Below are positions 35,452 through 62,564 of a stretch of 64,000 nt of DNA, in pieces. This DNA comes from Agromyces sp. Root81 (GTDB lineage Bacteria; Actinomycetota; Actinomycetes; Actinomycetales; Microbacteriaceae). The stretch is from the NCBI RefSeq assembly GCF_001429165.1, contig NZ_LMIR01000002.1, forward strand, positions 1,477,261-1,541,260, given 5' to 3'. Within the stretch, counting starts at the first letter, position 1. Each line of letters starts with the position of its first letter. Both the position numbers and the translations under genes were made by a program. Below the pieces are notes generated by a model. The model worked only from the letters and a program-made list of their open reading frames with translations, made no database searches and was not told the DNA's origin.

Positions 35452-35533
35452 CCTGTTGTGCACGGATGTCACCGGTGCTTCAGGATGGGAGAGTGGCGCA
35501 GGATGCCGCGCGCCCACGACCGATCGGAACACG

Positions 35534-46800: not shown

Positions 46801-49155
46801 CTACTGGTGACGCAACGCCGCCTGGAGGTGGTCGGCCGGGTCGACGAGGTGGTTGTGGTCGTCGACGCCGAGGGCGACCTCGGCCCAGTGCAGCGTGCCG
46901 CTGAACGCGCCGCCCCACACCTTGTAGCCCTCGTACGCCGGCATGCCGGTGTCGCAGCCCGTGTCGAGCCCCTCGTCGAACGAGAAGTAGAGCGCGTGCG
47001 TGTGCTCGACCCGTCCGGTGCCCACGGCCTTGCCGTCGATGAAGAGCGACACGTCGCCGCCCTTGCCGATGCCGCCGCCGTCGTAGGCGAACTCGACCCG
47101 CACCTGGTGCTCGCCCGCGCCGATCGGGACATCCGACCGGGTGGTCGACCGCTGCAGGCCGCAGTAGTTGTAGTGGAAGCCGAGCTTGCCGTCTTCGGCG
47201 AAGAACGACCAGCCGCCGGTGCGGCCGCCCTGGGCGACGATCGCGCCCTCGAGCGAACCGTCGTCGGGTGCGACCACCTCGGAGGTGACCGAGAACGAGC
47301 GGTTCTTCACGTTGATCGCGACGTTCTCGCCGAGGCGCACCATGCCGGGGTAGAGCCGCAGGCGGTCGCCCTTCACGAGGGTCGGCCGGCCGGCGATCTC
47401 GGGGTTCATGCGCTCGGCGGCGCGGTCGTCCATCGGGAACACGTTGTGACGTGCGGCCTCGATGAGGAAGAGCCGCTGCAGCTCGGCGAGCTTCTCGGGC
47501 TGCTCGCCTGCGAGGTTCTTCGCCTGGGTCCAGTCGGTGGTCGTGTCGTAGAGCTCCCACACGTCGAGCGAGAAGTCGGGGGCCTTCGACACGACGTCCC
47601 ACGGGGTGCGGTGCTTCGTGACCGCGGTCCAGCCGCGGTGGTAGATGCCGCGGTTGCCCATGAGCTCGAAGTACTGCGTCGTGTGGCGTTCGTCGGCGGA
47701 TGCGTCGTCGAAGCTGTACGCCATCGAGACGCCGTGCATCGGCTCCTGCGTGACGCCGTTCACCGTGTGCGGCTCGGCGAGGCCGGCCACGTCGAGCACG
47801 GTCGGCGCGAGGTCGATGACGTGGTGCCACTGCTCGCGCACCTCGCCCTTGGCCGCGATGCGGCTCGGCCAATGCACGATCGTGCCGTTGCGGGTGCCGC
47901 CGTAGTGCGAGGCGACCTGCTTGGTCCACTGGTACGGGGTGCACATCGCGTGCGCCCAGGCGACGGAGTAGTGGTTGTACGCCTCGGGGCCGCCGACCTT
48001 GTCGAGGTGCTCCTTCCAGAACTCGACGGTCTCGAACCGGCCGCCGCCGTTGGAGGCGGTGGTCAGCATATAGGCGCCGTTGATACCGCCCTCGGCCGAG
48101 GCGCCGTTGTCGCCGATGATGTAGTAGATCAGCGTGTCCTCGAGGATGTCGAGCTCTTCGAGGGCGTCGACGAGTCGGCCGGTGTGGTGGTCGGCGTACT
48201 CGAGGAAGGCAGCGTAGACCTCCATCTGGCGGGCCAGCACGGGCTTCTGCTCGTCGGGCACGTCGTCCCACGCCGGCAGGCCCTCGGGGCGTGCGGTCAG
48301 TTCGGAGTCGGCGGCGATGACGCCGAGCTCCTTCTGACGGGCGAACGTCTGCTCGCGCTGCGCGTCCCAGCCGTGGTCGAACCGGCCCTCGTACTTGGCG
48401 ATCCAGTCCTTCGGCACGTGGTGCGGGGCATGGGTCGCGCCCGGCGCGAAGTACACGAAGAAGGGCTTGTCGGGCGTCAGGCTCTGCTGCTGGCGCACGT
48501 AGCCGATCGCCTTGTCGGCGAGGTCGGGCATCAGGTGGTAGTCGGGGTCGGTCGGCGGCTCGATGGTCGTGAGGCCGTCGATGAGCGCCGGCGTGTACTG
48601 GTTCGTCTCGCCGCCGATGAAGCCGTAGAAGCGCTCGAACCCGCTCTGCGCGGGCCAGTGGTCGAAGGGGCCGGTCGGGCCCGACTCCCACACGGGCACC
48701 TCGTGGCACTTGCCGAACTGGGCCGTGTTGTAGCCGCTCTGGCGCAGGATCTCGGGCAGCGGCACCGCGGTGTTCGGGCGCGTCGAGCGGTAGCCGGGGG
48801 CCGGCGTCGCGGTCTCGGTGATGTGGCCCATGCCGACGGCGTGGTGGTTGCGGCCCGAGAGCAGCGCGGCGCGGGTCGGCGAGCAGAGCGCCGTGGTGTG
48901 GAACCGCGAGTAGCGCAGGCCCTCGCCGGCGAGGCGCTCTGCGGTGGGCGTGTGGATCGGCCCGCCGAAGGCGCTGGATGCCCCGAAGCCGACGTCGTCG
49001 AGCAGGATCACGAGCACGTTCGGCGCCTGGGCCGGCGGCCTCGCCGGCTCGATCGGCGGGAACTTCGCGTCGAGCTTCTTCGCGTCGTACGCGACCGGGC
49101 CCTGGTCCGGGCGGTCGGGCACGGGAAGCACGGATCCCGGTCGGACGTCGTTCAT
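46801..49155 (-). CDS. Type I (formylglycine) arylsulfatase
   Basis: 784 residues. The nucleophile Cys91 is in the motif CSPTRAALLSGR and would be converted to formylglycine by a maturation enzyme not found in this window. Metal ligands are suggested by LLDDVGFG (Asp53-Asp54) and by GDNGAS in the middle. The length and the C-terminal ~230-residue beta-rich extension fit the large arylsulfatase subgroup. There is no signal peptide, so it acts in the cytoplasm unless exported by folding partners. It could remove sulfate from imported sugars or sulfate esters; its neighbour, the sugar-acid cluster, makes the first attractive. Confidence 0.92.
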   Translation of the reverse strand: MNDVRPGSVLPVPDRPDQGPVAYDAKKLDAKFPPIEPARPPAQAPNVLVILLDDVGFGASSAFGGPIHTPTAERLAGEGLRYSRFHTTALCSPTRAALLSGRNHHAVGMGHITETATPAPGYRSTRPNTAVPLPEILRQSGYNTAQFGKCHEVPVWESGPTGPFDHWPAQSGFERFYGFIGGETNQYTPALIDGLTTIEPPTDPDYHLMPDLADKAIGYVRQQQSLTPDKPFFVYFAPGATHAPHHVPKDWIAKYEGRFDHGWDAQREQTFARQKELGVIAADSELTARPEGLPAWDDVPDEQKPVLARQMEVYAAFLEYADHHTGRLVDALEELDILEDTLIYYIIGDNGASAEGGINGAYMLTTASNGGGRFETVEFWKEHLDKVGGPEAYNHYSVAWAHAMCTPYQWTKQVASHYGGTRNGTIVHWPSRIAAKGEVREQWHHVIDLAPTVLDVAGLAEPHTVNGVTQEPMHGVSMAYSFDDASADERHTTQYFELMGNRGIYHRGWTAVTKHRTPWDVVSKAPDFSLDVWELYDTTTDWTQAKNLAGEQPEKLAELQRLFLIEAARHNVFPMDDRAAERMNPEIAGRPTLVKGDRLRLYPGMVRLGENVAINVKNRSFSVTSEVVAPDDGSLEGAIVAQGGRTGGWSFFAEDGKLGFHYNYCGLQRSTTRSDVPIGAGEHQVRVEFAYDGGGIGKGGDVSLFIDGKAVGTGRVEHTHALYFSFDEGLDTGCDTGMPAYEGYKVWGGAFSGTLHWAEVALGVDDHNHLVDPADHLQAALRHQ

Positions 49156-49234: not shown

Positions 49235-50395
49235 TCAACGGCGCACGAACTCCCGCACGAACGCCTCGTCGACGTCGACGCCGAGGCCTGGGCCGGTCGG
49301 GACCGCGAAGTCGCCGTTCGGCTTCACCTCGAGCGGCGTCGTGAGGATCCGGTTCGCGACCGGCAGGGTGAGCGGCTGGTACTCGAACGCGAGGAGCGAC
49401 GGCGAGCTCGCGGCGACGTGCACACCGGCGGCCATCGCGATGCCGAACGCGGCGGAGTGATGCGGTGCCACCTGTGCGTGGAAGGCGTCGGCGATGGCCG
49501 CGATCGCGAGCCCCTCGGTGATGCCGGTGCGACCGATGTCGGGCTGGGTGAGGCCGACGGCTCGGCGGGCCAGCCAGTCCGTGAACTCGAATCGGCTGCG
49601 CATCGCCTCGCCGACCGCGACGGGGGTCTCGATGGATGCCGCGAGGTCACGGTGGCCTTCGACGTCCTCGGGCGCGAGCGGCGCCTCGAAGAACCAGGCG
49701 TGGCGTTCGTCGAGTTCGCGCCCGAGCGCCTTCGCCTCGCCGAGGCGGTAGCTCCAGTGCGCGTCGAGCGCGACCTGGAGGTCGGGGTGCGCGCCGCGGA
49801 CGGCGTCGTAGGTCGCGAGGTCGGTGCGGAGGTCGGTGCCGAGGTGCATCTTGAACCGGCGCACACCCGCCTCGACGAGCACGGCGGTCTTCTCGGCGAT
49901 CTCGGCGTCGTCGGCGCCGCGGACGCCCGAGACGTACGTCGGCAGCACGTCGGCGAAGCGTCCGCCGGCGAGCTCGGATACCGAGAGGCCGGTCGCCTTG
50001 CCCCAGAGGTCCCACAACGCGATGTCGACGGCGGCCATCGCATCGGCCTGATGCCCCGTGAGGTGCCCGCGCTCGCGCATCGACTCCGACATCCGATGCC
50101 AGAGCGTGCGCACCGAACGCGGGTCCTCGCCGATGATGAGCGGCGTGAGCAGGTGGTCGACGATCGCGGCCGCGACTTCGGGTGCGACGGGGGCGAGCCC
50201 CTCGCCCCAGCCCACCAGGCCGTCATCGGTCTCGATCTTCACGATGAGCGTCTCGTAGCCGGGGGAGTAGAGGCTCCGCCACGGCGGCCTGATCATGTAG
50301 CCGCGGTGCTCGACCGCCGCCTCGCCCGCGTAGGAGTCGTCGGCATCCTCCTTCGAGATGAAGAGGGGGAACGTTTGGACGCGCGCGATTCTCAC
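49235..50395 (-). CDS. Mandelate racemase/muconate lactonising-type sugar-acid dehydratase
   Basis: 386 residues from a GTG at 50395 with GGAG upstream. It has the enolase-superfamily barrel with a catalytic Lys in RRFKMHLG, metal ligands in LDAHWSY (Asp), FFEAPL (Glu) and VGEAM (Glu), and a His general base in VAPHHSAAF. The likely reaction is syn-dehydration of a sugar acid to a 2-keto-3-deoxy acid. It is separated from the IclR gene by 106 bases and transcribed in the same direction. A DapA-like aldolase, an SDR and an SMP-30 lactonase lie within 13 kb, completing the enzyme classes of an oxidative sugar pathway. Confidence 0.88.
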   Translation of the reverse strand: MRIARVQTFPLFISKEDADDSYAGEAAVEHRGYMIRPPWRSLYSPGYETLIVKIETDDGLVGWGEGLAPVAPEVAAAIVDHLLTPLIIGEDPRSVRTLWHRMSESMRERGHLTGHQADAMAAVDIALWDLWGKATGLSVSELAGGRFADVLPTYVSGVRGADDAEIAEKTAVLVEAGVRRFKMHLGTDLRTDLATYDAVRGAHPDLQVALDAHWSYRLGEAKALGRELDERHAWFFEAPLAPEDVEGHRDLAASIETPVAVGEAMRSRFEFTDWLARRAVGLTQPDIGRTGITEGLAIAAIADAFHAQVAPHHSAAFGIAMAAGVHVAASSPSLLAFEYQPLTLPVANRILTTPLEVKPNGDFAVPTGPGLGVDVDEAFVREFVRR

Positions 50396-50466
50396 AGGGT
50401 CTCCGGTGACTTGAGGGATCGAGAAAGCCGGCGACGGATGCCGCGGCCGGGGTTCAGGCTGAGGGG

Positions 50467-50533
50467 GTCAGAGGGCCGCGAACGCCGTCGCGGAGTGGGG
50501 GTCAGAGGGCCGCGAACGCCGTCGCGGAGTGGG
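50467..50533. repeat. 34-bp tandem duplication at the 3' end of the IclR gene
   Basis: gtcagagggccgcgaacgcc plus 13 further bases occurs at 50467-50499 and again at 50501-50533, identical and offset by 34 bases. The second copy contains the real stop codon of the regulator; the first lies just downstream. It is probably a recent slippage event. Confidence 0.9.
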
Positions 50534-51305
50534 AGGCGCTGTAGCCGAGGGCGACGGAGATCTCGTCGGCGGCCTCGATCACCTGCAGCGCGAGCTCCTG
50601 GTGGGGCGCCTGCAGGTCGAGCACCGAGAGCGGACCGCTCGCGGAGAGGCCGGCGACGATCTCGCCCGCCCGGTCGCGGATGGGAGCGGCGATGCAGGCC
50701 CGCCCGAAGGCGAGCTCTTCGATCTCGGTCGCGTAGCCGCGGCTGCGGGTCTCGTCGAGGGCGATCTCCATGGCGGCGCGGTCGACGATCGTGTGCGGGG
50801 TGTACCGCTGGGGCGTGTTCGCGAAGTACTCGTCGACGAGCGCAGCGGGCATGCCCGACAGCAGCGCTTTGCCGAGACCCGTCGCGTGCAGCGGCGCGGT
50901 ACGGCCGGCCATCGCGAACGACTTCGGTGCGAGCGCGCCCTCGAAGTTGCAGAGGTAGGTGAAGGTGAAGCCGCTGAGTTCGGCGACGTTCACTCCGATG
51001 CCGAGCCGGTGTGCGAGGTTCTGGGCGATCTGGCGCGAAGCGCGGAAGATCGGGGAGCCGTTGAGCGCGATGGTGCCGAGGGAGACGGCGGCCGGGCCGA
51101 GCCGGTAGAGGCCCGTGCGGTCGTCCTGGACGACGAACTTCATGCGGTCGAGCGCCGACATCATCCGCGACACGGTGGACTGGCCGAGCCCGGTGAGCGC
51201 GCAGAGCTCGGACACGCGGAGTTCGCCGACCTCCTCGGTGAAGCACGCGAGCAGGGACATAGCCCGTTCGACGGTCTGTGTGCCGCCGACCGATTCGGAT
51301 GCCAT
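50502..51305 (-). CDS. IclR-family transcriptional regulator
   Basis: 267 residues from an ATG at 51305, chosen for AGAGGAG five bases upstream; the frame is open six codons further. An N-terminal winged HTH (TVERAMSLLACF, LRVSELCALTGLGQSTVSRMMSAL) is followed by a C-terminal effector domain (from ~85) with VAELSGFTFTY and RACIAAPIRDRAGEIVAGLSASG. IclR proteins sense small acids and sugars. It is divergent from the carbohydrate ABC transporter, its most likely target, and lies beside the sugar-acid dehydratase gene. Confidence 0.92.
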   Translation of the reverse strand: MASESVGGTQTVERAMSLLACFTEEVGELRVSELCALTGLGQSTVSRMMSALDRMKFVVQDDRTGLYRLGPAAVSLGTIALNGSPIFRASRQIAQNLAHRLGIGVNVAELSGFTFTYLCNFEGALAPKSFAMAGRTAPLHATGLGKALLSGMPAALVDEYFANTPQRYTPHTIVDRAAMEIALDETRSRGYATEIEELAFGRACIAAPIRDRAGEIVAGLSASGPLSVLDLQAPHQELALQVIEAADEISVALGYSASHSATAFAAL

Positions 51306-51543
51306 CGGGACTCCTCTTTCCATGCAGTTGCCGGGCGTCGCTGCATACCCGCTCGGGCTGCGCCGTTGCCGTCAGTGTAGTGAGCGGAATCGGCTGAGGC
51401 AATCCAAATATGGGTGCGTCATGCATTTTGTGGATTTCGCATCCGCATTGTGGTTTACTGGCCGCACGTCAGCGTTGACGACTTGTGACGACGACGCACA
51501 GGGGCCCTGACGAAGGGTCGCCATCTCTCGGGAAGTGAACGCA

Positions 51544-52479
51544 ATGCAGCAAGCCATCCTCGACCGGCCCGCGACACGCGAGACGACCGAGCCGCGATCC
51601 GGGCGGCGTACGACACTCGGTGCGAAGGATCGCACCTTCGGATTCATGATCGCACTCCCTGCGGTCCTGCTCTTCCTCGTGATCGCGATCTACCCGCTCG
51701 TCTCGAGCATCGGCACGAGTCTCTACGACCAGTCGCTGCTGCGCCCTGAGCGCACCTTCGTCGGGTTCGACAACTACACGGCGATCTTCGGCGAGTTCGT
51801 GGCGCGCCTCGGTACGACGCTCACCTTCGCGACGCTCGCGACGATCTTCCCCGTGCTCCTCGGCGTGGCCCTCGCCGTTCTCCTGAACGCGCGCATCCGC
51901 GGGCGCAACATCCTGCGCGGCACGCTCATGCTGCCGTGGCTCCTGCCCGGCGTCGTCGTCTCCTTCCTCTGGGCGTGGATCTTCAACGACAGCTACGGCG
52001 TGCTGAACCACCTGCTGACCATGGTGGGCCTCCCCGAGGTGAGCATGCTCGGCAACCCCACCGGCGCGATGGCGGCGGTGGTCATCGCGAAGACGTGGCA
52101 CTCGTTCCCCTGGATCATGGTCGTCGCCCTCTCGGTGCTGCAGACCCTGCCGAGCGAGCAGCTCGAGGCCGCGACGATCGACGGGGCCACGCGGTCCCAG
52201 CGCTTCCGCTACATCTCGCTGCCGCACATCGTCGGCCCCGTCGCGCTCGTGGCGACCCTCGAGTTCATCTACAACTTCGGCAACTTCGACACGATCTTCG
52301 TGATGACGGGCGGCGGACCCGGGGATTCGACCACGACGCTCGCCGTCAGCCTCTATCAACTCGCGTTCGGCAGCTACGAGCTCGGCAAGGCATCCGCCAT
52401 GGGCGTGCTCTGGCTCATCCTGCTCGCGATCATCTCGAGCGCATACCTGCTGCTCAACCGACGTCTGGAGAAGCGATGA
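51544..52479 (+). CDS. Carbohydrate ABC transporter permease (MalF/UgpA type)
   Basis: 311 residues from an ATG at 51544, preferred over a GTG at 51535 because GGGAAG is correctly spaced. Six transmembrane segments are visible and the EAA loop reads EQLEAATIDGATRSQRF followed by SLPHI, which contacts the ATPase. It works with the permease encoded next (ATGA overlap) and the binding protein after it. No ATPase gene is present; many actinobacterial sugar importers share one ATPase (MsiK type) encoded elsewhere. Confidence 0.93.
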   Translation: MQQAILDRPATRETTEPRSGRRTTLGAKDRTFGFMIALPAVLLFLVIAIYPLVSSIGTSLYDQSLLRPERTFVGFDNYTAIFGEFVARLGTTLTFATLATIFPVLLGVALAVLLNARIRGRNILRGTLMLPWLLPGVVVSFLWAWIFNDSYGVLNHLLTMVGLPEVSMLGNPTGAMAAVVIAKTWHSFPWIMVVALSVLQTLPSEQLEAATIDGATRSQRFRYISLPHIVGPVALVATLEFIYNFGNFDTIFVMTGGGPGDSTTTLAVSLYQLAFGSYELGKASAMGVLWLILLAIISSAYLLLNRRLEKR

Positions 52480-53333
52480 GTCACGGCCGCGACATCGGAG
52501 AGGCGATCGTTCGCCCGAGACTGTCGATCCCGGGGCGCCTCGGACTGCTGCTGCTCGCCCTGTTCGGACTGCTGCCGGTCTACTGGCTGACGGCGACGGC
52601 GTTCATGAAGAAGGAGGCGGTCTTCGCACTCGACCGGCCGCTCTTCCCGGTCGACCCGACCCTCGACAACTTCATCGGGTTCTTCCAGAACGACCTGCTG
52701 CTGCAGAACCTCAAGAACAGCTTCATCGTCTCGACGGGCACCGCCGTGCTCGCCGTGCTCGTCGGCGCCTTCATGGCCTACTCGCTCTCGAAGTTCCGGT
52801 ACTCCGGGCGCAATGCGATCATGTTCATGTTCCTCATCGGCCAGCTCATCCCCGGTGCGCTCCTGCTCATCTCGCTGTTCCTGATGCTGAGCTCGGTGAA
52901 CCTGCTCTACACCTACACGGCGCTCATCATCTCGTTCACGACGTTCACGCTGCCGCTGACGGTGTTCCTCCTGAAGGGCATCATCGACGGGCTGCCCGAC
53001 GACATCCTCGAAGCCGCGAAGGTCGACGGCCTCTCGCGCATCGCGACGATGTTCAAGATCGTCTTCCCGCTCATCGTGCCCGGCCTCATCACGGCGGCGA
53101 TGTTCGCCTTCATGCGCGGCTGGAGCGACCTGCTCTTCGCGCTCACGCTCGCAGGGCCCGACAAGCAGACCCTGCCCGCCGGCCTCACCCAGGCGTTCAT
53201 CCGTGACGGCACGGCCGATTGGCCGGCGCTCATGGCGGCATCCCTCATCACGTCGCTGCCGCTCGCCATCATCTTCATCCTCCTCCAGCGCTACTTCGTC
53301 TCCGGCCTCGCGTCGGGGGCCGTCAAGGGGTAG
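52476..53333 (+). CDS. Carbohydrate ABC transporter permease (MalG/UgpE type)
   Basis: 285 residues, with its ATG overlapping the stop of the first permease. Six transmembrane segments are present and the EAA loop reads DDILEAAKVDGLSRIATMFKI followed by FPLIVPG. It forms the heterodimeric channel with the upstream permease. The length is slightly above the family average and no domain is missing. Confidence 0.93.
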   Translation: MSHGRDIGEAIVRPRLSIPGRLGLLLLALFGLLPVYWLTATAFMKKEAVFALDRPLFPVDPTLDNFIGFFQNDLLLQNLKNSFIVSTGTAVLAVLVGAFMAYSLSKFRYSGRNAIMFMFLIGQLIPGALLLISLFLMLSSVNLLYTYTALIISFTTFTLPLTVFLLKGIIDGLPDDILEAAKVDGLSRIATMFKIVFPLIVPGLITAAMFAFMRGWSDLLFALTLAGPDKQTLPAGLTQAFIRDGTADWPALMAASLITSLPLAIIFILLQRYFVSGLASGAVKG

Positions 53334-53386
53334 CGATGATCCACCGAACCGTCCCGACCCACACCACGACGAAGGAGCAGTCCCCC

Positions 53387-54694
53387 ATGAACATCTCGTC
53401 CTCGCAGCTCAGCCGCCGCGCCTTCCTCGGCGGTGGCACTGCACTCGCCGCGTTCGGCGCCCTCGCCCTCGCCGGCTGCGCCACCCCGGCTGCACCGGGA
53501 GCCACGGCCGCCGCGAACGCCGCGACCAAGGCCAAGACGATCAACTTCTACGGCAACTCGCTCGGCGAAGAGGCCCTGAAGCCCGCCTGGCAGGCCGTGC
53601 TCGACGATTTCTCCGCCGAGGAGGGCGTCACGGTCTCGCCCGTGATCTACCCCTACGACCAGGCGGCCACGCAGCTCGCCCTCACCGGGAGCGCCGGCAA
53701 GCTCATGGGCGTGGGCCAGTCGGGCGGATGGCAGGTGCTCACGCCGATGGACGTGCTGGCCGACCTCACCGACCTCGCCAAGGGGCTCGGCATCCCGCAG
53801 GGCGTGCTCGACGCGTACACGATGGACGGCAAGCTCCTCGTGATGCCGCTCACGGCCGCCGGCATCGGCATCATCACGAACGGCGAGATCGCCAAGAGCG
53901 TCGGCATCAAGTCGGGCATGACGATCGAGCAGTTCGCGACCGCGCTCGAGAAGATCAAGTCGCAGGACTCCTCGCTGATCCCGTACGCGGCGGTCACGAA
54001 GAACCCCGACCTGAAGGATGCCGCGCACTGGATGTGGGGCTTCGGCAGCCCGGTCGTCACCGACGACTTCGAGTGCACGATCGGCGACAAGGAGAGCGTG
54101 AAGGCGATCACCTGGTACAAGTCGCTCCAGGACGAGGGGCTCACCCAGGCGAACGTGGCCCGCGCCGATGCGCGCATCCTGTTCGCGAGCGGGCGTGCGG
54201 CCCTCTACGACGACGCGCCGCTCGCCTCGACCTTCGTGAAGACGAACGGTGCCGCCCAGAACATCATCGACAACATCGGCGCGATCTCCCGGCCCACGGC
54301 CGGTGGCAACGAGTCGTACAACCGCGCCTGGGGCAGCGGCCTCTTCGCGAGCGCCGGCGAAGGCGAGCTCACGAGCCGCGACTTCATCACGTACGCGGCG
54401 ACGAACGTCGAGGCCGCGACGGCTTTCTACAAGCAGTCGGCCGTCGCGCCGGCCGCGAAGTCCGTCGCCGACCAGATCCCGGAGCTGGCCGCCGACAAGT
54501 TCCAGACGGCGTTCCGCACCGAGGTCTCCGAGCACGCGCGCGGTGCCGCGTGGGACCGCGTGCCCGTGACGGCGCAGATCGACGCCGCGATCGGCGCCGG
54601 CGTCGCGAACATCCTCGCCGGCCAGGTCGACGTGCAGTCCGGCCTCAACTCCCTCCAGAAGGAAGTGCAGGGCCTGCTCGACGCGAACGCGTAG
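53387..54694 (+). CDS. Sugar ABC transporter substrate-binding lipoprotein (Tat-type signal)
   Basis: 435 residues from an ATG at 53387 with GAAGGAG upstream. The signal has a twin-arginine motif SRRAFLGGG (Arg10-Arg11) and a lipobox LALAGC with Cys31, so it is probably exported folded by Tat and lipid-anchored outside. The rest resembles family 1 solute-binding proteins for oligosaccharides (GEEALKPAWQAVLDDFSAEEGV). The ligand is likely a sugar oligomer produced by the secreted enzymes downstream. A terminator hairpin follows at 54704-54739. Confidence 0.9.
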   Translation: MNISSSQLSRRAFLGGGTALAAFGALALAGCATPAAPGATAAANAATKAKTINFYGNSLGEEALKPAWQAVLDDFSAEEGVTVSPVIYPYDQAATQLALTGSAGKLMGVGQSGGWQVLTPMDVLADLTDLAKGLGIPQGVLDAYTMDGKLLVMPLTAAGIGIITNGEIAKSVGIKSGMTIEQFATALEKIKSQDSSLIPYAAVTKNPDLKDAAHWMWGFGSPVVTDDFECTIGDKESVKAITWYKSLQDEGLTQANVARADARILFASGRAALYDDAPLASTFVKTNGAAQNIIDNIGAISRPTAGGNESYNRAWGSGLFASAGEGELTSRDFITYAATNVEAATAFYKQSAVAPAAKSVADQIPELAADKFQTAFRTEVSEHARGAAWDRVPVTAQIDAAIGAGVANILAGQVDVQSGLNSLQKEVQGLLDANA

Positions 54695-54703
54695 CGCCTC
54701 GAC

Positions 54704-54739
54704 GCCGGCGGCCTGCGGAGGGACCCGCAGGTCGCCGGC
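54704..54739. terminator. Terminator after the ABC transporter operon
   Basis: Fifteen-base arms gccggcggcctgcgg and ccgcaggtcgccggc, with one G-U pair, enclose 6 bases ten bases after the binding-protein stop. They lie between convergent genes, so both may end here. Confidence 0.75.
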
Positions 54740-54795
54740 GTTCGGCGTGCCCGGGGCATCCGTTCGAGCCGGATGCCTCGGGCCGCCGGGTGCGC

Positions 54796-55761
54796 TCAGG
54801 CCAGGCGGTCGTCGGGCAGCGCGAAGAAGTCGGCGGCATCGCGGCGCGACATCCGCTCGGAGACCTCGGCGACCGTCCCGTCGAGGTGCCCGTTCGCCCG
54901 CACGCTGAGTCGCCTCGGGCCGGTGAGCGCGTGGTAGACGGCGAACTGCCCGCGCGGGTCGACGGCAGGATCGAGCACGGCCGCCGCGACATGCACCGGG
55001 ATGCGGATGCGCGACGCCGCGATCGCGGCGTCGAAGTAGTCCAGCACGGGGCGCACCTCGGGGTGCAGCTGCAGGTGCCGGCGCACGGCCTCGCCGCTGC
55101 CGCTGCACTGCCGGGTCAGGCGGATCGCATGGTGCCCGAAGCTCGGCACGTCCAGCGAGGCGCGGCGGAAGCGGGCGTCCCAAGGGAGGGCCATCGCCCC
55201 GATGCCGCCGCCGAAGCTCCCGCCGCTGAAGTCGAGCGCCCCGCCGACTGCCGGTGCGGTGTCGATCAGGACCGTCGCGGCACGCCAGACATCGGCGGCG
55301 GCGAAGCGGTGCGAGTACGTGTCGCGGTGCGCGATGCCCGCGAGCACGTGCTCGTCGGGAAGCGCAGGGAAGCGACTCGAGGCGTTCGGTGCCGTGCCCG
55401 GCGCGGCGGGGAAGATCGCGGCCGTGTCCGCGGGCACCTGATCGAGATCGGGGGCGGTGCGGCCGCCGTAGCCGTGTCCGATCACGAGGCCGCGTCGGAG
55501 GTCGGATTCGACGTGCGGCACCATCACGAAGGCCACCGTCGGCTCGTCGGCGGACGATTCGAACCGGATCTCCGTCACGCGGTGGGTCGCGGTGGCGTCG
55601 AGGTCGCGCGCGAGCTCCCAGGGGACCGATCCGGTTCCGAACTCCTCGAACGTCCCCCGCCAGAACTCCTCGAAGTCGGCGGGCTCCTCCGGCCGCGCAG
55701 CCGGCGTCAGCAGCGCGGTCAGCGAGTACTCGGTCAGTTCCTCGGGTCGGTACTGGGTCAC
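54796..55761 (-). CDS. Acetyl-xylan esterase-like (AXE1 family) alpha/beta hydrolase
   Basis: 321 residues from a GTG at 55761 with GAGAGGA upstream. It is a CE7-type hydrolase: nucleophile Ser182 in SGGSFGGGIG, an oxyanion segment VIGHGYGGR near residue 97, a late Asp in AVLDPAVDP and His in NGHLDG near the C-terminus. There is no signal peptide, as usual for this cytoplasmic family that deacetylates imported oligosaccharides. It lies between the sugar importer and the big Tat-exported protein. Confidence 0.9.
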   Translation of the reverse strand: MTQYRPEELTEYSLTALLTPAARPEEPADFEEFWRGTFEEFGTGSVPWELARDLDATATHRVTEIRFESSADEPTVAFVMVPHVESDLRRGLVIGHGYGGRTAPDLDQVPADTAAIFPAAPGTAPNASSRFPALPDEHVLAGIAHRDTYSHRFAAADVWRAATVLIDTAPAVGGALDFSGGSFGGGIGAMALPWDARFRRASLDVPSFGHHAIRLTRQCSGSGEAVRRHLQLHPEVRPVLDYFDAAIAASRIRIPVHVAAAVLDPAVDPRGQFAVYHALTGPRRLSVRANGHLDGTVAEVSERMSRRDAADFFALPDDRLA

Positions 55762-55820
55762 CGCGTGTTCCTCTCAGAGATGCATGGTCGACGCTACCGG
55801 CGCCGCTGGCCGCATGGCCA

Positions 55821-55855
55821 TTGACACTGTCGCATATCGCATGCATCATATGCAT
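55821..55855 (+). promoter_or_regulatory. Promoter/operator region of the 1335-residue Tat protein
   Basis: A -35-like TTGACA (55821-55826) lies 30 bases before the ATG at 55857. The stretch between has the palindrome atgcat-cat-atgcat (55841-55855) and a wider gcatat/atatgc pair. No ribosome site precedes the ATG, so the transcript may start close to it. Regulator identity unknown; the IclR protein is a candidate. Confidence 0.5.
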
Positions 55856-55856
55856 C

Positions 55857-58800
55857 ATGGATTCAACGCAGAAGCCAGAGACCAACGACGGATCAGCGCT
55901 GTGGAGCCGGCGTTCAGCGCTCCAACTCCTGCTTGCCGCGGGCGTGCTCCCGGCCGTCCTGGGGGCCAACCCCGAAGCCGCCGCGGCGGACCCCGGGTTC
56001 AGCGGCGTGAACGGTGCGTATGCCGACGCCCTGCGCCGCTTGGACAAGCCGAACCTGTCACTGACCTGCGTTGCGCGGCTGGTGGGACGCAACCACCGGA
56101 TGACCTTCTTCCAGGCCAGATGGGACGGCGGCGAGACGATCGTCCGCGATCTCGAGATCAAGCACGACGGCGGCTGGCTGTCGCTGACCGACCCCGAGCG
56201 CCGCTTCGACGAGCAATGGGTCGTGCTGGCCGGCACGCTGCCCTCCGGCAGCGCCCCGGAACTCTACGGGCCGCTGCAGCCGGCCTGGCTGGGCTTCACC
56301 TCGTATCGACGCCTCAGCGGCCAGGTGATCGAGCTGCGCACCAGCACCGATGACGTCGAGCTCGTCGTCAACTGGCGGCTCGACGGCGATCATCCCGAGG
56401 CGCACTACGTGCTGAAGGCCAAGAAGGCCGGCGACTACCTCGTCGGCTACCAGAGCCAGGACGTCAAGCAGCTCGACGACCTCGACGAGGTGCTCTGCGG
56501 GTCGTACCAGCACGCGCTCACCGTGGTCGACGGCTCGGCCCCCCTCGGCGCGTGGGAGCTGTTCGCCCCCATGGCGCTGACCCAGTACGCGGTCGCCGAC
56601 GTCGCCGTCACCTCGGGGGTGTACCTGCCCGCCGAGGTCGCCGAGTTCGTCCACGAGCGGCAGCTGATGTCCGATCGGCAGCCGTACGGGATGAGCCTGC
56701 GCAACGACAGCCTCGACGTCGTGCCGTCCATCTACGCACCGCAACCGGGTCTCCGAACCGCCATGGCGGCCGGTGAACGACGCGGCTTCGCCTTCGGCCT
56801 GGCGGCTCGCGCCGGCAGCCTCTACGACACCTACACTCAGCTGTGCCGCGGTGAGTACGGCCTGAAGGCCTATCGGCACAACGTCTACGACCGATCGCTG
56901 ACCGACGCCGTCCACGCCATGACGGAGCTCATCGCCATCGAGCCCGACGGCGACGACTCGGTCGACTACATCCCCTCCTACTCCGGCTGGTGGAACCGCG
57001 CGAAGGGGTTCGTCGACGTGGAGAACGAGGACGCGGTCCGCACCGCGGCCAGCGGTGTGCTGCTCTCCGCGCACTATCTGACCGACACCGCCGGTGGCAC
57101 CCTCTACGATCGGCGCGCAAGGCCGGCGATCGAGTACCAGCTGTCGCGCAAGGGCATCGGCCACTCGCCGGTGATCGGCGGCTCGGTCTACAACGACAAG
57201 ACGCAGTACCGGATCGGCCGGATCCCCACGGACGCCGTGAACCTGACGGCGCTCTCGCAACTCACCCACGGGCGCAATGCGGGAATCCAGCGGCTCGCGA
57301 TGCAGGCCACCAAGGCGGGGGTCGTCGGGCAGAGCCGGGCGCCGTTCGCGACCGCACTGGCCACCTACCAGGTCACCGGCGATCCGGCCTACCTGGCGGA
57401 GGCGACCCTGATCGCCAAGCGCTACGTGCAGGAGGAGATCATCACGCCGTACCGCGGCAACGGGCAGCCGCCGGGTGGATTCGCCTACAGCTTCTCCAAG
57501 TACTGGGTCGACCTGCTCGTGATGTTCGAGCTGACAGGGGACGCCGAGTTCCTCGACGGGGCCTACCGGGAGGCGCAGCGGTTCATCACGCAGACCGCGG
57601 TCCGGCCGGTGCCGGACCAGACGGTCACCGTGCCGGAGGGCCACGTGATCGAGCAGCAGTACGACTGGGAGTCGCGATCCTCGCTGCCGTCCTATCCGAC
57701 GACGGAGGTCGCGTCGGAGACCGTGCCCGCCTGGTACGTCTCCGCCACCGGCCTCACCTTCGAGGCCCTGTCGTCGTTCAAGCTCGGTGTCAGCTCGCTC
57801 ACCGATCCGGGCGGCGGCTACGTCTTCAACCCGTGCTGGGCCGGAGCACTGCTGCGCCTGGCGCATCACACCGGCGACCCGATGCTGGCCGACATCGCGC
57901 ACAACATGGTGATCGGCCGGTTCACCACCTATCCCGGCTACTACAGCCGCCAGTTCCAGGTGGCCCAGATGAAGCCCGACTTCGCCACCAGCGGTCCGGT
58001 CGGGATCACCGGGTACTACTTCCACCACGCGCCCGCCCAGCTCGGCCTCGCGATGGACTACCTGATCAGCGAGAGCTTCTACCGCAGCTCGGGCAACATC
58101 GACTTCCCGCACGTGTTCGAGGCCGACTTCGCCTACTTCAAGTACTTCGCCTACGGCCACGCTCCCGGCGCCTTCTACGGCGAGGACGGCGTGTGGCCCT
58201 ACTTCCCGGCCGGCCTCGTCTCCCTCGACAATCCGTTGGTCAACTGGCTGGGCGGTGTCGGCAACGACGCCCTCTACGTCAGCCTGACGAACTCCTCGGC
58301 CGACGCCCAGTCCGTGGTCGTCGACCTCACCGGTGAGCTGACGGGACTGACGCGCGGCGATGCGCCCGCCGTCGAGGTGGTGGCCGCCGACGGCAGTCGT
58401 TCGTCCCAGGCGGCCGACGGCGGCCGGATCACGGTCCGCGTGCCCGGACACGGGCTGGTCGGGCTGGTCGTGCGCGGGGTGACGGTGGAGCGACCGGCGC
58501 AGCCGTTCGACGACATCGTCGATCACGGCCCCGACAGCTTCCACGAGGTCGACACCGATCCGGGCACCGACTACGGCCTCGCCCGAGGGGTGCTCCTCGT
58601 GCGACCCGACGGTGCAGGCTACGACGCCTACGTGCAGATCGACACGGAGGAGCCGGCCACCCTCGCCTATCGGATCGGCGACGGGTCGGAGAAGCAGGCG
58701 CCGCAGAAGGGTTACCCGTACGAGTGGACGATCGCCGTCGACTCGCTGGCCGAGACGTTCAGCTACACGATCACCGTCGGTGCGATGACGACCGAGGAGG

Positions 58801-59864
58801 TCACCCTGCGCCTGCCGGGCCGCATCAGCGGCGCCGATCCCGGAGTGGCCGGAGACGTGATCGCCCAGGCCACCGGCACGGCCGGCGACCGGGTGCCGCT
58901 CGTCATCGAGGTGCGCAATGCGACCGAAGAGCCGATCACCGGCGACGTGGCCCTGACCCTGCCCGACGGGTGGCAGCTCGACGGCGCCGCCCCGACCGTC
59001 TTCGTTCCCGCGAAGGGATCCGCCCGGGTGGACTCGGCGGCGATCATCGCGCCGGGCGCCGCGCTCGGCGAGGTCCGGGTCGAGGCATCGTTGGCAGCCG
59101 CCGGGAGCGATCCGGTGGCCCTGCGACCGGCGGCGATCGACGTGATCGACAGTCGCCGACTGGTGTCGCTCTCCACCGACACCGCCATCATCAGCGGACC
59201 CGGCGCGACCGCGCGACTGACCGCCCTGGTGATCAACACCGGCGTCACCCCGCTGCGGGGCACGCTGGCCCTCTTCGGCATCGCGGGGTGGAGCGTCGAC
59301 CGGAAGGATGCCGTGATCGAGGTGCCGCCGCGGTCCGATCTCACCCACACGTGGACGGTGACGGCCGGATCGACCGTGACCCCTGGGTCGTCGACGCGGT
59401 TCGAGGCGCGGCTCGACGGGACGCTCCGCCGCGGCGTGCTGGTGCGGGTCGCCGACGAGGGAGTGATCGCCCACACCCAGTCGCCGTGGCCCGGCTATCT
59501 CGAGACCGGGCTGTGGTACCCGAGCGGGCTGACCGGCTGGAACGGCACTCGGACGCGCTACAGCGACGTCGACTCCGTGGGCAGCACCGTGACCTGGACG
59601 GTGACCCTGCCCGAGCCGGGCGAGTATCGGGTCTCAGTCTGGTACCCGACGAATCCGACGACCACGACCTCGGCCGCCTACATCGTCGAGCATGAGGGCG
59701 GCAGCACCGAGGTCGTCGTGAATCAGACCGAGGGGGCGGCGGCCTGGCGCTCGCTCGGCACGTTCAGGTACGCCGCCGGCGCCGCCGGCGTGGTGCGCCT
59801 GGAGGTGCGCAGCGCCGCCTTCCACCGCGTCAGCGCTGCGCAGTTCGTCCGCGTCGGGAACTGA
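55857..59864 (+). CDS. Large Tat-exported multidomain protein with golvesin-like C-terminus, catalytic type unknown
   Basis: 1335 residues. A twin-arginine signal (WSRRSALQLLLAAGVL, Arg18-Arg19) precedes an AEA-type cleavage region near residue 45. Residues ~50-300 are beta-rich. Residues ~330-830 are helical with Trp/Tyr-rich repeats (SYSGWWNRAKGF, YSFSKYWVDL, AFATALATYQV) suggesting an (alpha/alpha) toroid of the kind found in polysaccharide lyases and some glycosidases. Then come beta-sandwich segments (about 1000-1200) resembling NEW3-type domains (VPLVIEVRNATEEPITGDV), and a C-terminal carbohydrate-binding-like golvesin domain (about 1215-1335). I cannot name the enzyme. It sits among sugar import and sugar-acid genes, so an extracellular polysaccharide-degrading role is inferred. 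Confidence 0.8.
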   Translation: MDSTQKPETNDGSALWSRRSALQLLLAAGVLPAVLGANPEAAAADPGFSGVNGAYADALRRLDKPNLSLTCVARLVGRNHRMTFFQARWDGGETIVRDLEIKHDGGWLSLTDPERRFDEQWVVLAGTLPSGSAPELYGPLQPAWLGFTSYRRLSGQVIELRTSTDDVELVVNWRLDGDHPEAHYVLKAKKAGDYLVGYQSQDVKQLDDLDEVLCGSYQHALTVVDGSAPLGAWELFAPMALTQYAVADVAVTSGVYLPAEVAEFVHERQLMSDRQPYGMSLRNDSLDVVPSIYAPQPGLRTAMAAGERRGFAFGLAARAGSLYDTYTQLCRGEYGLKAYRHNVYDRSLTDAVHAMTELIAIEPDGDDSVDYIPSYSGWWNRAKGFVDVENEDAVRTAASGVLLSAHYLTDTAGGTLYDRRARPAIEYQLSRKGIGHSPVIGGSVYNDKTQYRIGRIPTDAVNLTALSQLTHGRNAGIQRLAMQATKAGVVGQSRAPFATALATYQVTGDPAYLAEATLIAKRYVQEEIITPYRGNGQPPGGFAYSFSKYWVDLLVMFELTGDAEFLDGAYREAQRFITQTAVRPVPDQTVTVPEGHVIEQQYDWESRSSLPSYPTTEVASETVPAWYVSATGLTFEALSSFKLGVSSLTDPGGGYVFNPCWAGALLRLAHHTGDPMLADIAHNMVIGRFTTYPGYYSRQFQVAQMKPDFATSGPVGITGYYFHHAPAQLGLAMDYLISESFYRSSGNIDFPHVFEADFAYFKYFAYGHAPGAFYGEDGVWPYFPAGLVSLDNPLVNWLGGVGNDALYVSLTNSSADAQSVVVDLTGELTGLTRGDAPAVEVVAADGSRSSQAADGGRITVRVPGHGLVGLVVRGVTVERPAQPFDDIVDHGPDSFHEVDTDPGTDYGLARGVLLVRPDGAGYDAYVQIDTEEPATLAYRIGDGSEKQAPQKGYPYEWTIAVDSLAETFSYTITVGAMTTEEVTLRLPGRISGADPGVAGDVIAQATGTAGDRVPLVIEVRNATEEPITGDVALTLPDGWQLDGAAPTVFVPAKGSARVDSAAIIAPGAALGEVRVEASLAAAGSDPVALRPAAIDVIDSRRLVSLSTDTAIISGPGATARLTALVINTGVTPLRGTLALFGIAGWSVDRKDAVIEVPPRSDLTHTWTVTAGSTVTPGSSTRFEARLDGTLRRGVLVRVADEGVIAHTQSPWPGYLETGLWYPSGLTGWNGTRTRYSDVDSVGSTVTWTVTLPEPGEYRVSVWYPTNPTTTTSAAYIVEHEGGSTEVVVNQTEGAAAWRSLGTFRYAAGAAGVVRLEVRSAAFHRVSAAQFVRVGN

Positions 59865-59919
59865 CGGCGCATGCCCGCCGGCCGAGTGCGGTGAGCACCG
59901 GCCGGCGGATGACTGCGGC

Positions 59920-60639
59920 TCAGAGCCAGCGTTCGCGCAGCGCGGGCTTCACCCAGGCGGCGGGGGAGGCCATCGACAGGCCGCCGTCGACGGGGATCGT
60001 CGTGCCCGTGACGAACGACGCGGCGTCCGAGCCGAGGAACGCGACGACGGAGGCGACCTCCTCGGGGCGGCCGATCCGGCCGAGGGGGTAGCCCTCGCTC
60101 TCGCCGGTCTCGGTCGCCGAGATGCTCCCGGGCGCCACGGCGTTGACCCGGATCCCGCGCGGGCCGTAGTCGAGGGCCAGCTGCCGCACGAGGCCCTCGA
60201 CGCCGGCCTTCGCCGCAGCGTAGGCCGGCAGGGCCGGCGCGGCCAGGGAGGCGTTGACCGACGTGACCGCGATGATCGATGAGCCGGGTGCGAGTCGCGG
60301 CAGTGCCGCTCGCGACACGAAGAAGGCGGAGTCGAGGGTCGCCCCGAGGGCGCCGCGCCAGTCGTCGTCGCTCGTGGCCTCGGCCCGGCCGATCGGCATC
60401 CGAGCGGCGGCCAGCACCACGACGTCGAGCCGGCCGAGCGCCTGCTCGGCGTCGGCGACGGCCTGGCCCGCGGCATCCGCTCGGCTGCAGTCGGCGACGA
60501 GGTACCGCTCGAAGACGGGGTCGGCGGATGCCTCGAGCCCGACTCCGACGACGGCGTCGCCCTGCTCGGCGAAGGCCCGGGCGATCGCGAGTCCGATGTC
60601 GGAGCCGCCGCCGATCAGCAGTACGCCGCGACGGGTCAC
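59920..60639 (-). CDS. SDR sugar dehydrogenase
   Basis: 239 residues from a GTG at 60639 that overlaps the stop of the DapA-like gene (GTGA, 60636-60639). The cofactor motif is LLIGGGSDIGLAIA rather than the usual TGxxxGIG, the catalytic Ser is in VTSVNAS, and YAAAK holds Tyr and Lys. GTTIPVDGG closes the fold. It is tightly coupled to a DapA-like enzyme and neighbours an SMP-30 lactonase, so oxidation of a sugar or of a 2-keto-3-deoxy acid is a good guess. The substrate is not determined. Confidence 0.88.
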   Translation of the reverse strand: MTRRGVLLIGGGSDIGLAIARAFAEQGDAVVGVGLEASADPVFERYLVADCSRADAAGQAVADAEQALGRLDVVVLAAARMPIGRAEATSDDDWRGALGATLDSAFFVSRAALPRLAPGSSIIAVTSVNASLAAPALPAYAAAKAGVEGLVRQLALDYGPRGIRVNAVAPGSISATETGESEGYPLGRIGRPEEVASVVAFLGSDAASFVTGTTIPVDGGLSMASPAAWVKPALRERWL

Positions 60640-61553
60640 ACACGCACCGCGGTCGGCAGCGGCGGGAGCTCGAGTTCCTCGATGACGAGGTCGACGGCGG
60701 CGCGGCTGCCGGCGTCGAGGCGAGCGGCCGGGTACCGCACGGTGGCGTGGTCGATGATGCCGCGCGCCACGAGCACCTCCTTGTGCACCGCCCACGCGAT
60801 GCCGCCCTGCAGACCCACCAGCACGAGGGGGAGCATACGTCGGAACCCGGCCCGCGCCTCCTCGACGCGCCCGGCGACGAACTGCTCGAGCACCGGCGCG
60901 AGCAGGTCGGCGAACTCGCAGGCCGGCATCGTGCCGACGGCGCCTCGTGCGTATTCCTCCAGGCAGAACTGCGCGTTCTGGCCGCCGAGCACCGCGAAGT
61001 CGTCGTCGCCGATCGCCTCGACGACCGCGCCGACCTTCGGAGCGGTCGGCGGTGCCTCGATCTTCACCGAGTCGACGCCGTCGAGGCGGGCGAGTTCGGC
61101 GATGAGCGTCGGCGGCATGGCGACACCGGTGACGCCAGGGGCGTCCTGCACCATGACCGAGAGGGACGTGGCCGCGGCGACCTCGCCGTAGAAGTCGACG
61201 AGGCTCGCAGCGGGCGGCTTCACCATGAACGGCGGCAGCACCATGAGGGCGTCGGCGCCGCCCTCCTGGGCGATGAGCGCCTGCTCGATCGAGGTCGCCG
61301 TCGAGGTGCCGTTGACGCCCGCGATGACGGGCACGCGTCCGTCGACGAGCTCGACGACATCGGAGAGGATGGTGCGTCGTTCGGCAGCGGTGAGCGCGAA
61401 GCCCTCGCTCGCCATGCCGAAGACGGCCACGCCGTCGACGCGGGAGGCGAGCTGGAACTCGACCAGGCGTCGCAGGCCGGCGCGGTCGAGGGCGCCTGAT
61501 TCGTCGAACGGGGTGGCAAGAATCGGCATCAAGCCGTGGAGCTTCGGGGCCAT
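60636..61553 (-). CDS. DapA-superfamily aldolase/dehydratase
   Basis: 305 residues with the (beta/alpha)8 class I aldolase fold. Schiff-base Lys164 is in DSVKIEAPP. The catalytic Tyr of typical DapA (YN-P segment) is replaced: this protein has VQDAPG with Gln136-Asp137. The substrate loop reads GMASEG rather than GTTGE. It is therefore unlikely to be lysine-pathway DHDPS and more likely a 2-keto-3-deoxy-sugar-acid aldolase or dehydratase. It is transcribed before the SDR and divergent from the SMP-30 lactonase, in a cluster with an enolase-type sugar-acid dehydratase. Confidence 0.87.
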   Translation of the reverse strand: MAPKLHGLMPILATPFDESGALDRAGLRRLVEFQLASRVDGVAVFGMASEGFALTAAERRTILSDVVELVDGRVPVIAGVNGTSTATSIEQALIAQEGGADALMVLPPFMVKPPAASLVDFYGEVAAATSLSVMVQDAPGVTGVAMPPTLIAELARLDGVDSVKIEAPPTAPKVGAVVEAIGDDDFAVLGGQNAQFCLEEYARGAVGTMPACEFADLLAPVLEQFVAGRVEEARAGFRRMLPLVLVGLQGGIAWAVHKEVLVARGIIDHATVRYPAARLDAGSRAAVDLVIEELELPPLPTAVRV

Positions 61554-61664
61554 CGGCCAGTTCCTCTTTCAGCGTCGTTGCTTCTGCCAGTCTCGCAACT
61601 GACATTCATATTGTGAGATAGCCTGCCACATATCGGGTACCTCCACCACCGAAGGATGACACGG

Positions 61665-62564
61665 ATGTCGCGCTCCACACCCTTACGAACCGTCGAGATC
61701 ATCTCCGCTGAGCGGTACGTCCAGGCCGAGTCGCCCCGCTGGGACGGCCGCGACGGCGGCCTCGCCTGGATCGACATGGCGACCGGCTCGTTCCATCGCG
61801 GGCGGCTCGAAGGGGGAATGGTCGTGCCGGGGTCGGCCGTGACGGTCGGCAAGCAGATCGGCGCGCCCGTGCCGCTCGCCGAGCCGGGTGCGGGCTGGGC
61901 CGTGGCCGTCGATCGCGGTGTCGTTCACGTGGGCGACGACGGTGCCGTCTCCTCGATCGCCACGGACGTCGCAGCGGCCGACAGCTACATGAACGACGGC
62001 GGATGCGACCCGTCGGGCCGATTCTGGGTGGGCAACCAGTCGATGCCCCGGGCGCCGCACTGCGCGCTGTGGAGCATCGACCCCGACGGCGTGGCGACCG
62101 AGCGGCTGGGCGCCGTGACCGTCTCCAACGGCCTCGCCTTCGATCGCACGGGCGAGACGCTGTACTACATCGACACGCTTCCGCACCGCAGCATCGAGGC
62201 CTTCGATGTCGCGCCCGACGGCCGGCTCGGCAACCGGCGCACGGTGTGCAGGGTCGAGGGCGGCAACCCCGACGGCATGACGATCGACCTCGAGGGCATG
62301 CTCTGGGTCGCGGTCTGGGATGCCGCCGAGGTGCGCCGCTACTCGCCGCACGGCGTGCTCCTCGAGACGATCGAGCTCCCGTCGAAGCGGCCCACGGCCG
62401 TCGCGCTCGTCGACCGCCTGCTCGTGATCACGACGGCGAGCGTGGGGCTGGCGCATCCGGCCGACGCCGACGGCGCCCTCCTCGGTGTCGAGGTCGAGGT
62501 CGGCGGGGCGCCGTCGCTGCCATGGGGCGGGGTGCCGCCGCGGGCGCGCGACGAGGCCCCGTAG
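61665..62564 (+). CDS. SMP-30/gluconolactonase/LRE family lactonase
   Basis: 299 residues from an ATG at 61665; GAAGGA lies eight bases upstream, whereas the in-frame ATG at 61656 overlaps that site. The six-bladed propeller has metal-site residues in AESPRWD (Glu), NDGGCDPSGRFWVG (Asn, Asp) and NGLAFDRTGETLYYID (Asn, Asp). It hydrolyses sugar lactones to acids. It is divergent from the DapA-like gene, with a shared 111-base control region. It would act between a sugar dehydrogenase and the enolase-type dehydratase of the cluster. Confidence 0.9.
   Translation: MSRSTPLRTVEIISAERYVQAESPRWDGRDGGLAWIDMATGSFHRGRLEGGMVVPGSAVTVGKQIGAPVPLAEPGAGWAVAVDRGVVHVGDDGAVSSIATDVAAADSYMNDGGCDPSGRFWVGNQSMPRAPHCALWSIDPDGVATERLGAVTVSNGLAFDRTGETLYYIDTLPHRSIEAFDVAPDGRLGNRRTVCRVEGGNPDGMTIDLEGMLWVAVWDAAEVRRYSPHGVLLETIELPSKRPTAVALVDRLLVITTASVGLAHPADADGALLGVEVEVGGAPSLPWGGVPPRARDEAP

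Follow-up and report, generated by a model that had tools for sequence, protein, structure and literature searches.

A conserved actinobacterial locus around a giant, presumably secreted protein, with a sugar importer and candidate enzymes of non-phosphorylative sugar-acid breakdown

The stretch of DNA analysed here, which we call the window, comprises 64,000 nucleotides of the 4.16 Mb genome of Agromyces sp. Root81 (contig NZ_LMIR01000002.1, positions 1,477,261 to 1,541,260 of the forward strand). It carries a run of genes for an IclR-family regulator, an ABC sugar importer, an AXE1-family esterase, a giant protein of 1335 residues, and enzymes of the SDR, SMP-30, enolase and DHDPS/DapA (hereafter DapA) families. 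This gene set is confirmed as a conserved catabolic locus and is biologically meaningful. Its arrangement goes beyond chance, because in several genera the giant is surrounded by these families and a search anchored on the DapA gene leads back to the giant in 8 of 11 cases. We lean towards reading it as a glycan-scavenging locus that combines import with a non-phosphorylative route of sugar breakdown.

In such a route the giant, as a secreted protein, would cleave a terminal sugar or a short oligosaccharide off an extracellular glycan. It might do so in the manner of the PL27 L-rhamnose-alpha-1,4-D-glucuronate lyases, in which case L-rhamnose would feed the pathway. The ABC importer would bring the product into the cell, where the AXE1-type esterase, acting in the cytoplasm, would strip it of acetyl groups. 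Oxidation at C1 by the SDR would then give a lactone, the SMP-30 protein would open it, and the enolase-superfamily enzyme would dehydrate the resulting acid to a 2-keto-3-deoxy acid. A further dehydration, proceeding through a lysine Schiff base and without splitting of the molecule, would be the task of the DapA-family enzyme, while the IclR regulator may sense one of the intermediates.

Conservation of the locus among actinobacteria

A scan of species genomes with the giant gave 114 relatives, of which the best 80 were used to compare gene neighbourhoods. Together with the window these form 81 loci, 55 of them actinobacterial (54 fetched loci and the window) and 26 of Paenibacillus type; genes were taken from a codon-usage caller and clustered at 35% identity and 60% coverage by single linkage, and genera were assigned from the titles of the records. 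Relatives of the giant occur in Microbacterium, Agromyces, Jiangella, Occultella, Micromonospora, Actinopolymorpha, Kribbella and others, and the actinobacterial loci span 14 genera or genus-level groups. The closest giants over residues 45-900, among the best 80 of the 114, are those of Agromyces subbeticus, A. cerinus and A. fucosus (90-92%); those of Paenibacillus type stand at 37-40% to the window giant. At E<=1e-30 the giant matched one of 249 genomes of the same family, namely its own, and at E<=1e-20 it matched 20 of 394 genomes of the class, five of these, by our reading, through the C-terminal Golvesin region only. Five plasmid records were likewise matched, all through that region only.

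The pathway enzymes are frequent companions of the giant. Among the 55 actinobacterial loci the enolase cluster was found in 38, DapA in 35, the SDR in 33 and SMP-30 in 23, together with IclR in 37 and the two permeases in 40 and 38; two clusters of binding proteins occur in 23 and 15 loci. For the 33 loci outside Agromyces and Microbacterium, subtraction leaves 19 with the enolase, 18 with IclR, 17 with DapA, 15 with the SDR and 5 with SMP-30. Gene order varies between Agromyces, Microbacterium and Jiangella. An earlier note on this DNA, made from the sequence without database searches, had stated that its proposal would fail if homologues of these genes were not found together elsewhere. Comparison of the neighbourhoods shows that the families recur across actinobacteria, and this co-localisation supports the proposed locus of import and non-phosphorylative sugar-acid use around the giant. 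Regulator, importer, giant and catabolic enzymes are clustered and conserved, and would make up an actinobacterial polysaccharide-utilisation locus if the giant is, as presumed, its exported CAZyme.

The reverse search points in the same direction. Among 396 genomes of the order, a DapA match was seen in 15. Around the better of these matches 11 stretches were fetched, and 8 of them contain the giant at a distance of about 10 kb or less; G799 and G902, where the match was weak, were left out, and one locus poorly read by the gene caller (L153) was scored as a miss. One locus (L155) holds the pathway with no giant nearby, and another (L146) holds the enolase, DapA and IclR genes with no giant in the fetched stretch. 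The latter could help to identify the sugar.

The giant protein

The giant has a predicted N-terminal beta-sandwich, (alpha/alpha) helical domain and C-terminal beta domain, together with a NEW3-like region and Golvesin_C at residues 1215-1327; its AlphaFold2 model is a confident one, with a pLDDT of 84.6 and a pTM of 0.90. The description of this protein as unidentified holds for the catalytic part, which matches no Pfam family (none at E<=1 in the window giant) and has no Pfam or NCBIfam assignment across the giant family. It does not hold for the C-terminal end, where Golvesin_C is recognised and a NEW3-like match falls just under the cut-off. Among PDB sequences the full giant was matched through its C-terminal domain only (Paenibacillus xanthan lyase). 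A profile of 13 catalytic parts returned nothing there at E<=1, and one of 43 catalytic parts gave weak matches only, the best being 4mu9 (record name GH73, E 0.0078).

Structure comparison with Foldseek placed the PL27 lyase BACCELL_00875 (5no8, E 4e-7) at the top for the full model. For the PL27 lyases, BACCELL_00875 and BT0263 among them, excerpts of PMC8377490 describe an N-terminal beta-sandwich followed by an (alpha/alpha) barrel, an architecture that the modelled giant may share. Identity in the fold alignment is about 11% with a low TM-score, and unlike the PL27 lyases the giant has additional C-terminal beta, NEW3-like and Golvesin_C parts. PDB sequence searches with the giant and with the two profiles did not return 5no8, the only PL27 sequence in the comparison.

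A weak likeness, by profile and by fold, links the helical domain to the GH127 beta-L-arabinofuranosidase HypBA1. The GH127 Pfam model gave weak matches in 4 of 13 giants (best E 0.0058, missing the cut-off) and none at E<=1 in the window giant, and the helical and C-terminal part, modelled alone at a pLDDT of 81.8, matched HypBA1 with E 2e-4. GH127 catalysis uses a Cys-Zn site. No cysteine is found among the giant residues that at least 97% of 43 sequences share, in which respect the giant differs from HypBA1; we rejected GH127 membership on this ground and on the missed Pfam cut-off. The residues invariant in the 43 sequences (W378, W379, R381, K383, E389, R667, R688, Y692, Y695, H724 and E739) would suit a lyase as well as a hydrolase. 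Of the actinobacterial giants, 47 of 57 have an RR export motif ahead of them, that of the window included.

Judged from Pfam, NCBIfam and PDB, rather than from CAZy itself, the giant is a promising candidate to found a CAZyme family of its own. Literature searches, judged from listings alone, brought up no paper that we recognised as describing this locus. The breakdown of xanthan or gellan had been considered because of Golvesin_C in the Paenibacillus xanthan lyase and of GH88 and GH78 neighbours, and was set aside, as the papers listed in a literature search gave no link between the giant family and either polymer. Two neighbouring copies of the giant are present in five loci (L036, L038, L071, L087 and L156; Jiangella and Occultella among them), and one Occultella genome has six matches to it.

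The pathway enzymes and the identity of the sugar

Among solved structures, those nearest to the DapA-family enzyme are L-2-keto-3-deoxyarabonate dehydratases (7c0c and 3fkk; 132 bits versus 96 for the next). Excerpts of PMC9795676 name Gln143, Lys171 and Glu173 as residues of that dehydratase and give Glu173 as not conserved in other members of its enzyme family; the residue numbers were mapped onto DapA by us from the printed alignment. All 35 members of the DapA cluster have Gln at the position of the aldolase Tyr, keep the Schiff-base Lys and carry Glu two residues further on (Lys-x-Glu). Because of this pattern the step is probably a dehydration and not an aldol cleavage. An aldolase, as which the enzyme had been annotated in the earlier note, is thus judged unlikely, the residues of the active site indicating a dehydratase. 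Since all 35 sequences have Asn in place of Glu200, the residue proposed to act in the dehydratase as second base, at C5, the substrate may differ from L-2-keto-3-deoxyarabinonate.

Among NCBIfam models the enolase scores best with galactonate dehydratase (NF010624, 188.9 bits, under the cut-off of 311), followed by arabinonate dehydratase (163 bits), against 102 bits for rhamnonate dehydratase, while its nearest PDB entries, 2ppg and 4h1z, are named only as putative isomerase or enolase. Of the 57 enolases in the cluster, 33 have the motifs K-x-H, D-x-H-W, QPD and PHH together, another is truncated by the end of its locus, and the rest are of other types; the D-x-H pattern is also that of galactonate dehydratase. 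The SDR is nearest to glucose 1-dehydrogenase and the SMP-30 protein to regucalcin-type proteins.

Two known routes invite comparison. The L-arabinose pathway of Azospirillum employs an SMP-30 lactonase and an IlvD-type acid dehydratase. The locus shares with it the SMP-30 family and the Gln, Lys and Glu of the DHDPS-family dehydratase, and differs in its enolase-type acid dehydratase, in the Asn replacing Glu200 and in having no semialdehyde dehydrogenase motif nearby. With the non-phosphorylative L-rhamnose and L-fucose pathways it has in common the classes of SDR, lactonase and enolase-type dehydratase, but its DapA lacks the aldolase Tyr and there is no pair of 4-dehydrogenase and hydrolase among the conserved core genes. 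The earlier note had also called the locus possibly complete; no enzyme was identified for the last carbon step.

Further indications of the substrate come from genes beside the giant, found by clustering, by Pfam and by a tally of neighbours in loci that belong neither to Microbacterium nor to Paenibacillus, in which 61 of 209 candidate proteins were scanned. GH78 rhamnosidases adjoin it in 4 of 55 loci (L071, L078, L079 and, by clustering, L080) and GH88 in 3 (L095 and L101 by Pfam, L112 by clustering), GH88 enzymes being active on unsaturated uronides. Eda occurs near the giant in 15 loci, NAD-epimerase-type genes in 7 and PfkB in 4, with one representative of each identified by Pfam. The genome of the window has GH88 and Eda-type aldolase genes about 1.8 kb apart outside the locus (C1:365007-366026 and C1:367791-368330; L129, L157) and a single GH78 match, below the cut-off. 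According to excerpts of PMC8377490, BACCELL_00875 is a Rha-GlcA lyase, and the PL27 enzymes act on gum arabic by beta-elimination, setting rhamnose free. A rhamnose- and uronate-containing substrate is therefore favoured, with L-arabinose or another galacto-configured sugar as a close rival: the GH78, GH88, Eda, PfkB and NAD-epimerase-type genes and the PL27 fold match place L-rhamnose ahead, set against the galacto-type leanings of the enolase and DapA. As the sugar of the pathway itself, L-rhamnose is a tentative choice.

Several observations weigh against a PL27-like, rhamnose-releasing giant coupled to this pathway. The PL27 match has a low TM-score (0.30/0.36) with GH94 close behind (E 5e-6), and when the helical and C-terminal part is compared alone, a viral tail protein and GH127 lead and PL27 is absent among the 50 matches listed. 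The enolase and DapA are closer to galactonate- and arabinonate-type enzymes than to rhamnonate ones, the Asn at Glu200 departs from the known dehydratase, and a motif search of 1175 called proteins found no aldehyde dehydrogenase. An RR motif precedes none of the 26 Paenibacillus-type giants, the search being for this type of signal alone. All 26 Paenibacillus-type loci lack the enolase, DapA, SDR, IclR, SMP-30 and AXE1 clusters (permease 1 occurs in 6 and permease 2 in 1), as do three Propionibacteriaceae loci that hold the giant, and 8 of 9 Occultella loci have the giant without enolase, DapA and SDR, the ninth having all three. In Occultella aeris (L049) the giant is 87% identical to that of the window with the pathway genes absent within 10 kb, which may represent a recent transfer of the giant alone. 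We also have to consider that some of these absences may reflect contig ends, because the length of 22 among the 81 loci is below 22 kb.

If the sugar were L-arabinose or another galacto-configured sugar, the giant would be a GH127-like hydrolase and a Weimberg-type route would lead to alpha-ketoglutarate semialdehyde. We regard this as possible, if less probable than L-rhamnose. The arabonate dehydratases nearest to DapA, the order of the enolase scores with the D-x-H pattern, the weak GH127 and HypBA1 matches and an arabinofuranosidase-type gene by the giant in L068 are consistent with it, yet that gene is the single such neighbour identified, the giant has no conserved cysteine for a Cys-Zn site like that of GH127, and the aldehyde dehydrogenase motif is found in 0 of the 1175 called proteins. 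Release of a uronic acid, oxidised to an aldarate and then converted to alpha-ketoglutarate semialdehyde, appears improbable. The NAD-epimerase-family genes, taken as uronate dehydrogenases, the Eda and PfkB genes and the GH88 neighbours counted above would fit, but the core locus has a classical SDR, the four Agromyces loci are without the epimerase-type, Eda and PfkB clusters, and the KdgD model scores poorly (71 bits). Least probable of all is L-fucose from a fucose-containing glycan, with DapA as an aldolase yielding lactaldehyde. A similar enzyme set including a DapA-like candidate has been proposed for Bifidobacterium (excerpts of PMC5080750), and the giant of L089 has in its vicinity a gene with matches to GHL6 and alpha-L-fucosidase models; the loss of the aldolase Tyr in all 35 DapA sequences speaks against it, the Bifidobacterium enzyme itself being outside the comparison.

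The boldest reading would have the giant found a new CAZyme family of actinobacteria and Paenibacillus and the pathway be an undescribed double dehydration. In it the substrate of the DHDPS-family enzyme would be a 2-keto-3-deoxy acid of six carbons, which in the case of rhamnose is 2-keto-3-deoxy-L-rhamnonate, and the product a 2,5-dioxo acid, formed without splitting of the molecule. We consider this combination unlikely.

The glycan had further been proposed to be sulfated and acetylated. The sulfatase cluster is restricted to Agromyces and occurs there in 3 of the 55 loci, so that a sulfated glycan was dropped as a general reading; the sulfatase of L096 is a different one. For acetylation, an AXE1-type esterase is indeed present, but as one family alone; by eye it has no signal peptide, and by clustering it is confined to Agromyces and Microbacterium (21 of their 22 loci, 0 of the other 33 actinobacterial ones). 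L088 has another AXE1-family gene by Pfam, and Paenibacillus-type loci carry a GDSL/CE2-like esterase cluster.

Gene layout, neighbouring genes and significance

Genes were placed by open reading frame calls and codon-position GC, and families were assigned with Pfam and NCBIfam (Table 1). By these means all genes named in the earlier note were found present and correctly placed. Intergenic gaps measure 53-211 bases, the exceptions being two overlaps of 4 bases, between the permeases and between SDR and DapA. Published background came from excerpts of PMC9795676, PMC8377490, PMC5080750 and PMC6336799.

Table 1. Genes of the locus and the adjoining sulfatase, in window coordinates
Feature	Position	Strand	Remarks
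Sulfatase	46801-49155	-	Same strand as enolase, 79 bp away; at most an accessory gene
Enolase-superfamily acid-sugar dehydratase candidate, galactonate-dehydratase-like	49235-50395	-	K-x-H, D-x-H-W motifs
IclR-family regulator	50502-51323	-	Pfam/NCBIfam
ABC sugar permease 1	51535-52479	+	Pfam/NCBIfam
ABC sugar permease 2	52476-53333	+	Pfam/NCBIfam
ABC substrate-binding lipoprotein (SBP_bac_8)	53387-54694	+	Pfam/NCBIfam
AXE1-family esterase	54796-55761	-	GGSFGG serine motif; no signal peptide seen by eye
Giant, 1335 aa, presumed secreted glycan-cleaving enzyme	55857-59864	+	RR signal (SRRSAL), Golvesin_C, predicted fold
SDR sugar 1-dehydrogenase candidate	59920-60639	-	Overlaps DapA by 4 bases
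DHDPS/DapA (DHDPS/NAL) family, probably 2-keto-3-deoxy sugar acid dehydratase	60636-61553	-	Family and active-site residues
SMP-30 family lactonase candidate	61656-62564	+	Pfam/NCBIfam

Some neighbouring genes in the fetched loci deserve mention in their own right. Three loci (Paenibacillus, Occultella and one other) have an FAD_oxidored (PF12831) gene adjacent or close to the giant, at L123:5678-7918, L076:8189-9802 and L151:881-2170. A polysaccharide pyruvyl transferase-like gene (PF04230; L154:15196-16437) adjoins the enolase of a catabolic locus, and downstream of the giant in L106 (16063-19539) a single protein combines a GH31-type C-terminal domain with Golvesin_C. Elsewhere in the window, an open reading frame of 795 residues (35456-37843, +) joins luciferase-like monooxygenase and FAD_binding_4/BBE oxidase domains, which would be an uncommon fusion provided that the frame is correct, and a protein of 2258 residues with many DUF7507 and DUF11 repeat matches (17337-24113, +) is probably a surface protein.

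The giant represents a family of large, presumably secreted proteins of actinobacteria and Paenibacillus-type genomes whose catalytic part has no confident solved relative in sequence. The giant is so often found with one sugar-acid pathway that both become open to test: the sugar accepted by the SDR and the enolase would hint at the target of the giant, and both a new family of CAZymes and a variant route of breaking down sugars without phosphorylation might thereby be added to those known.

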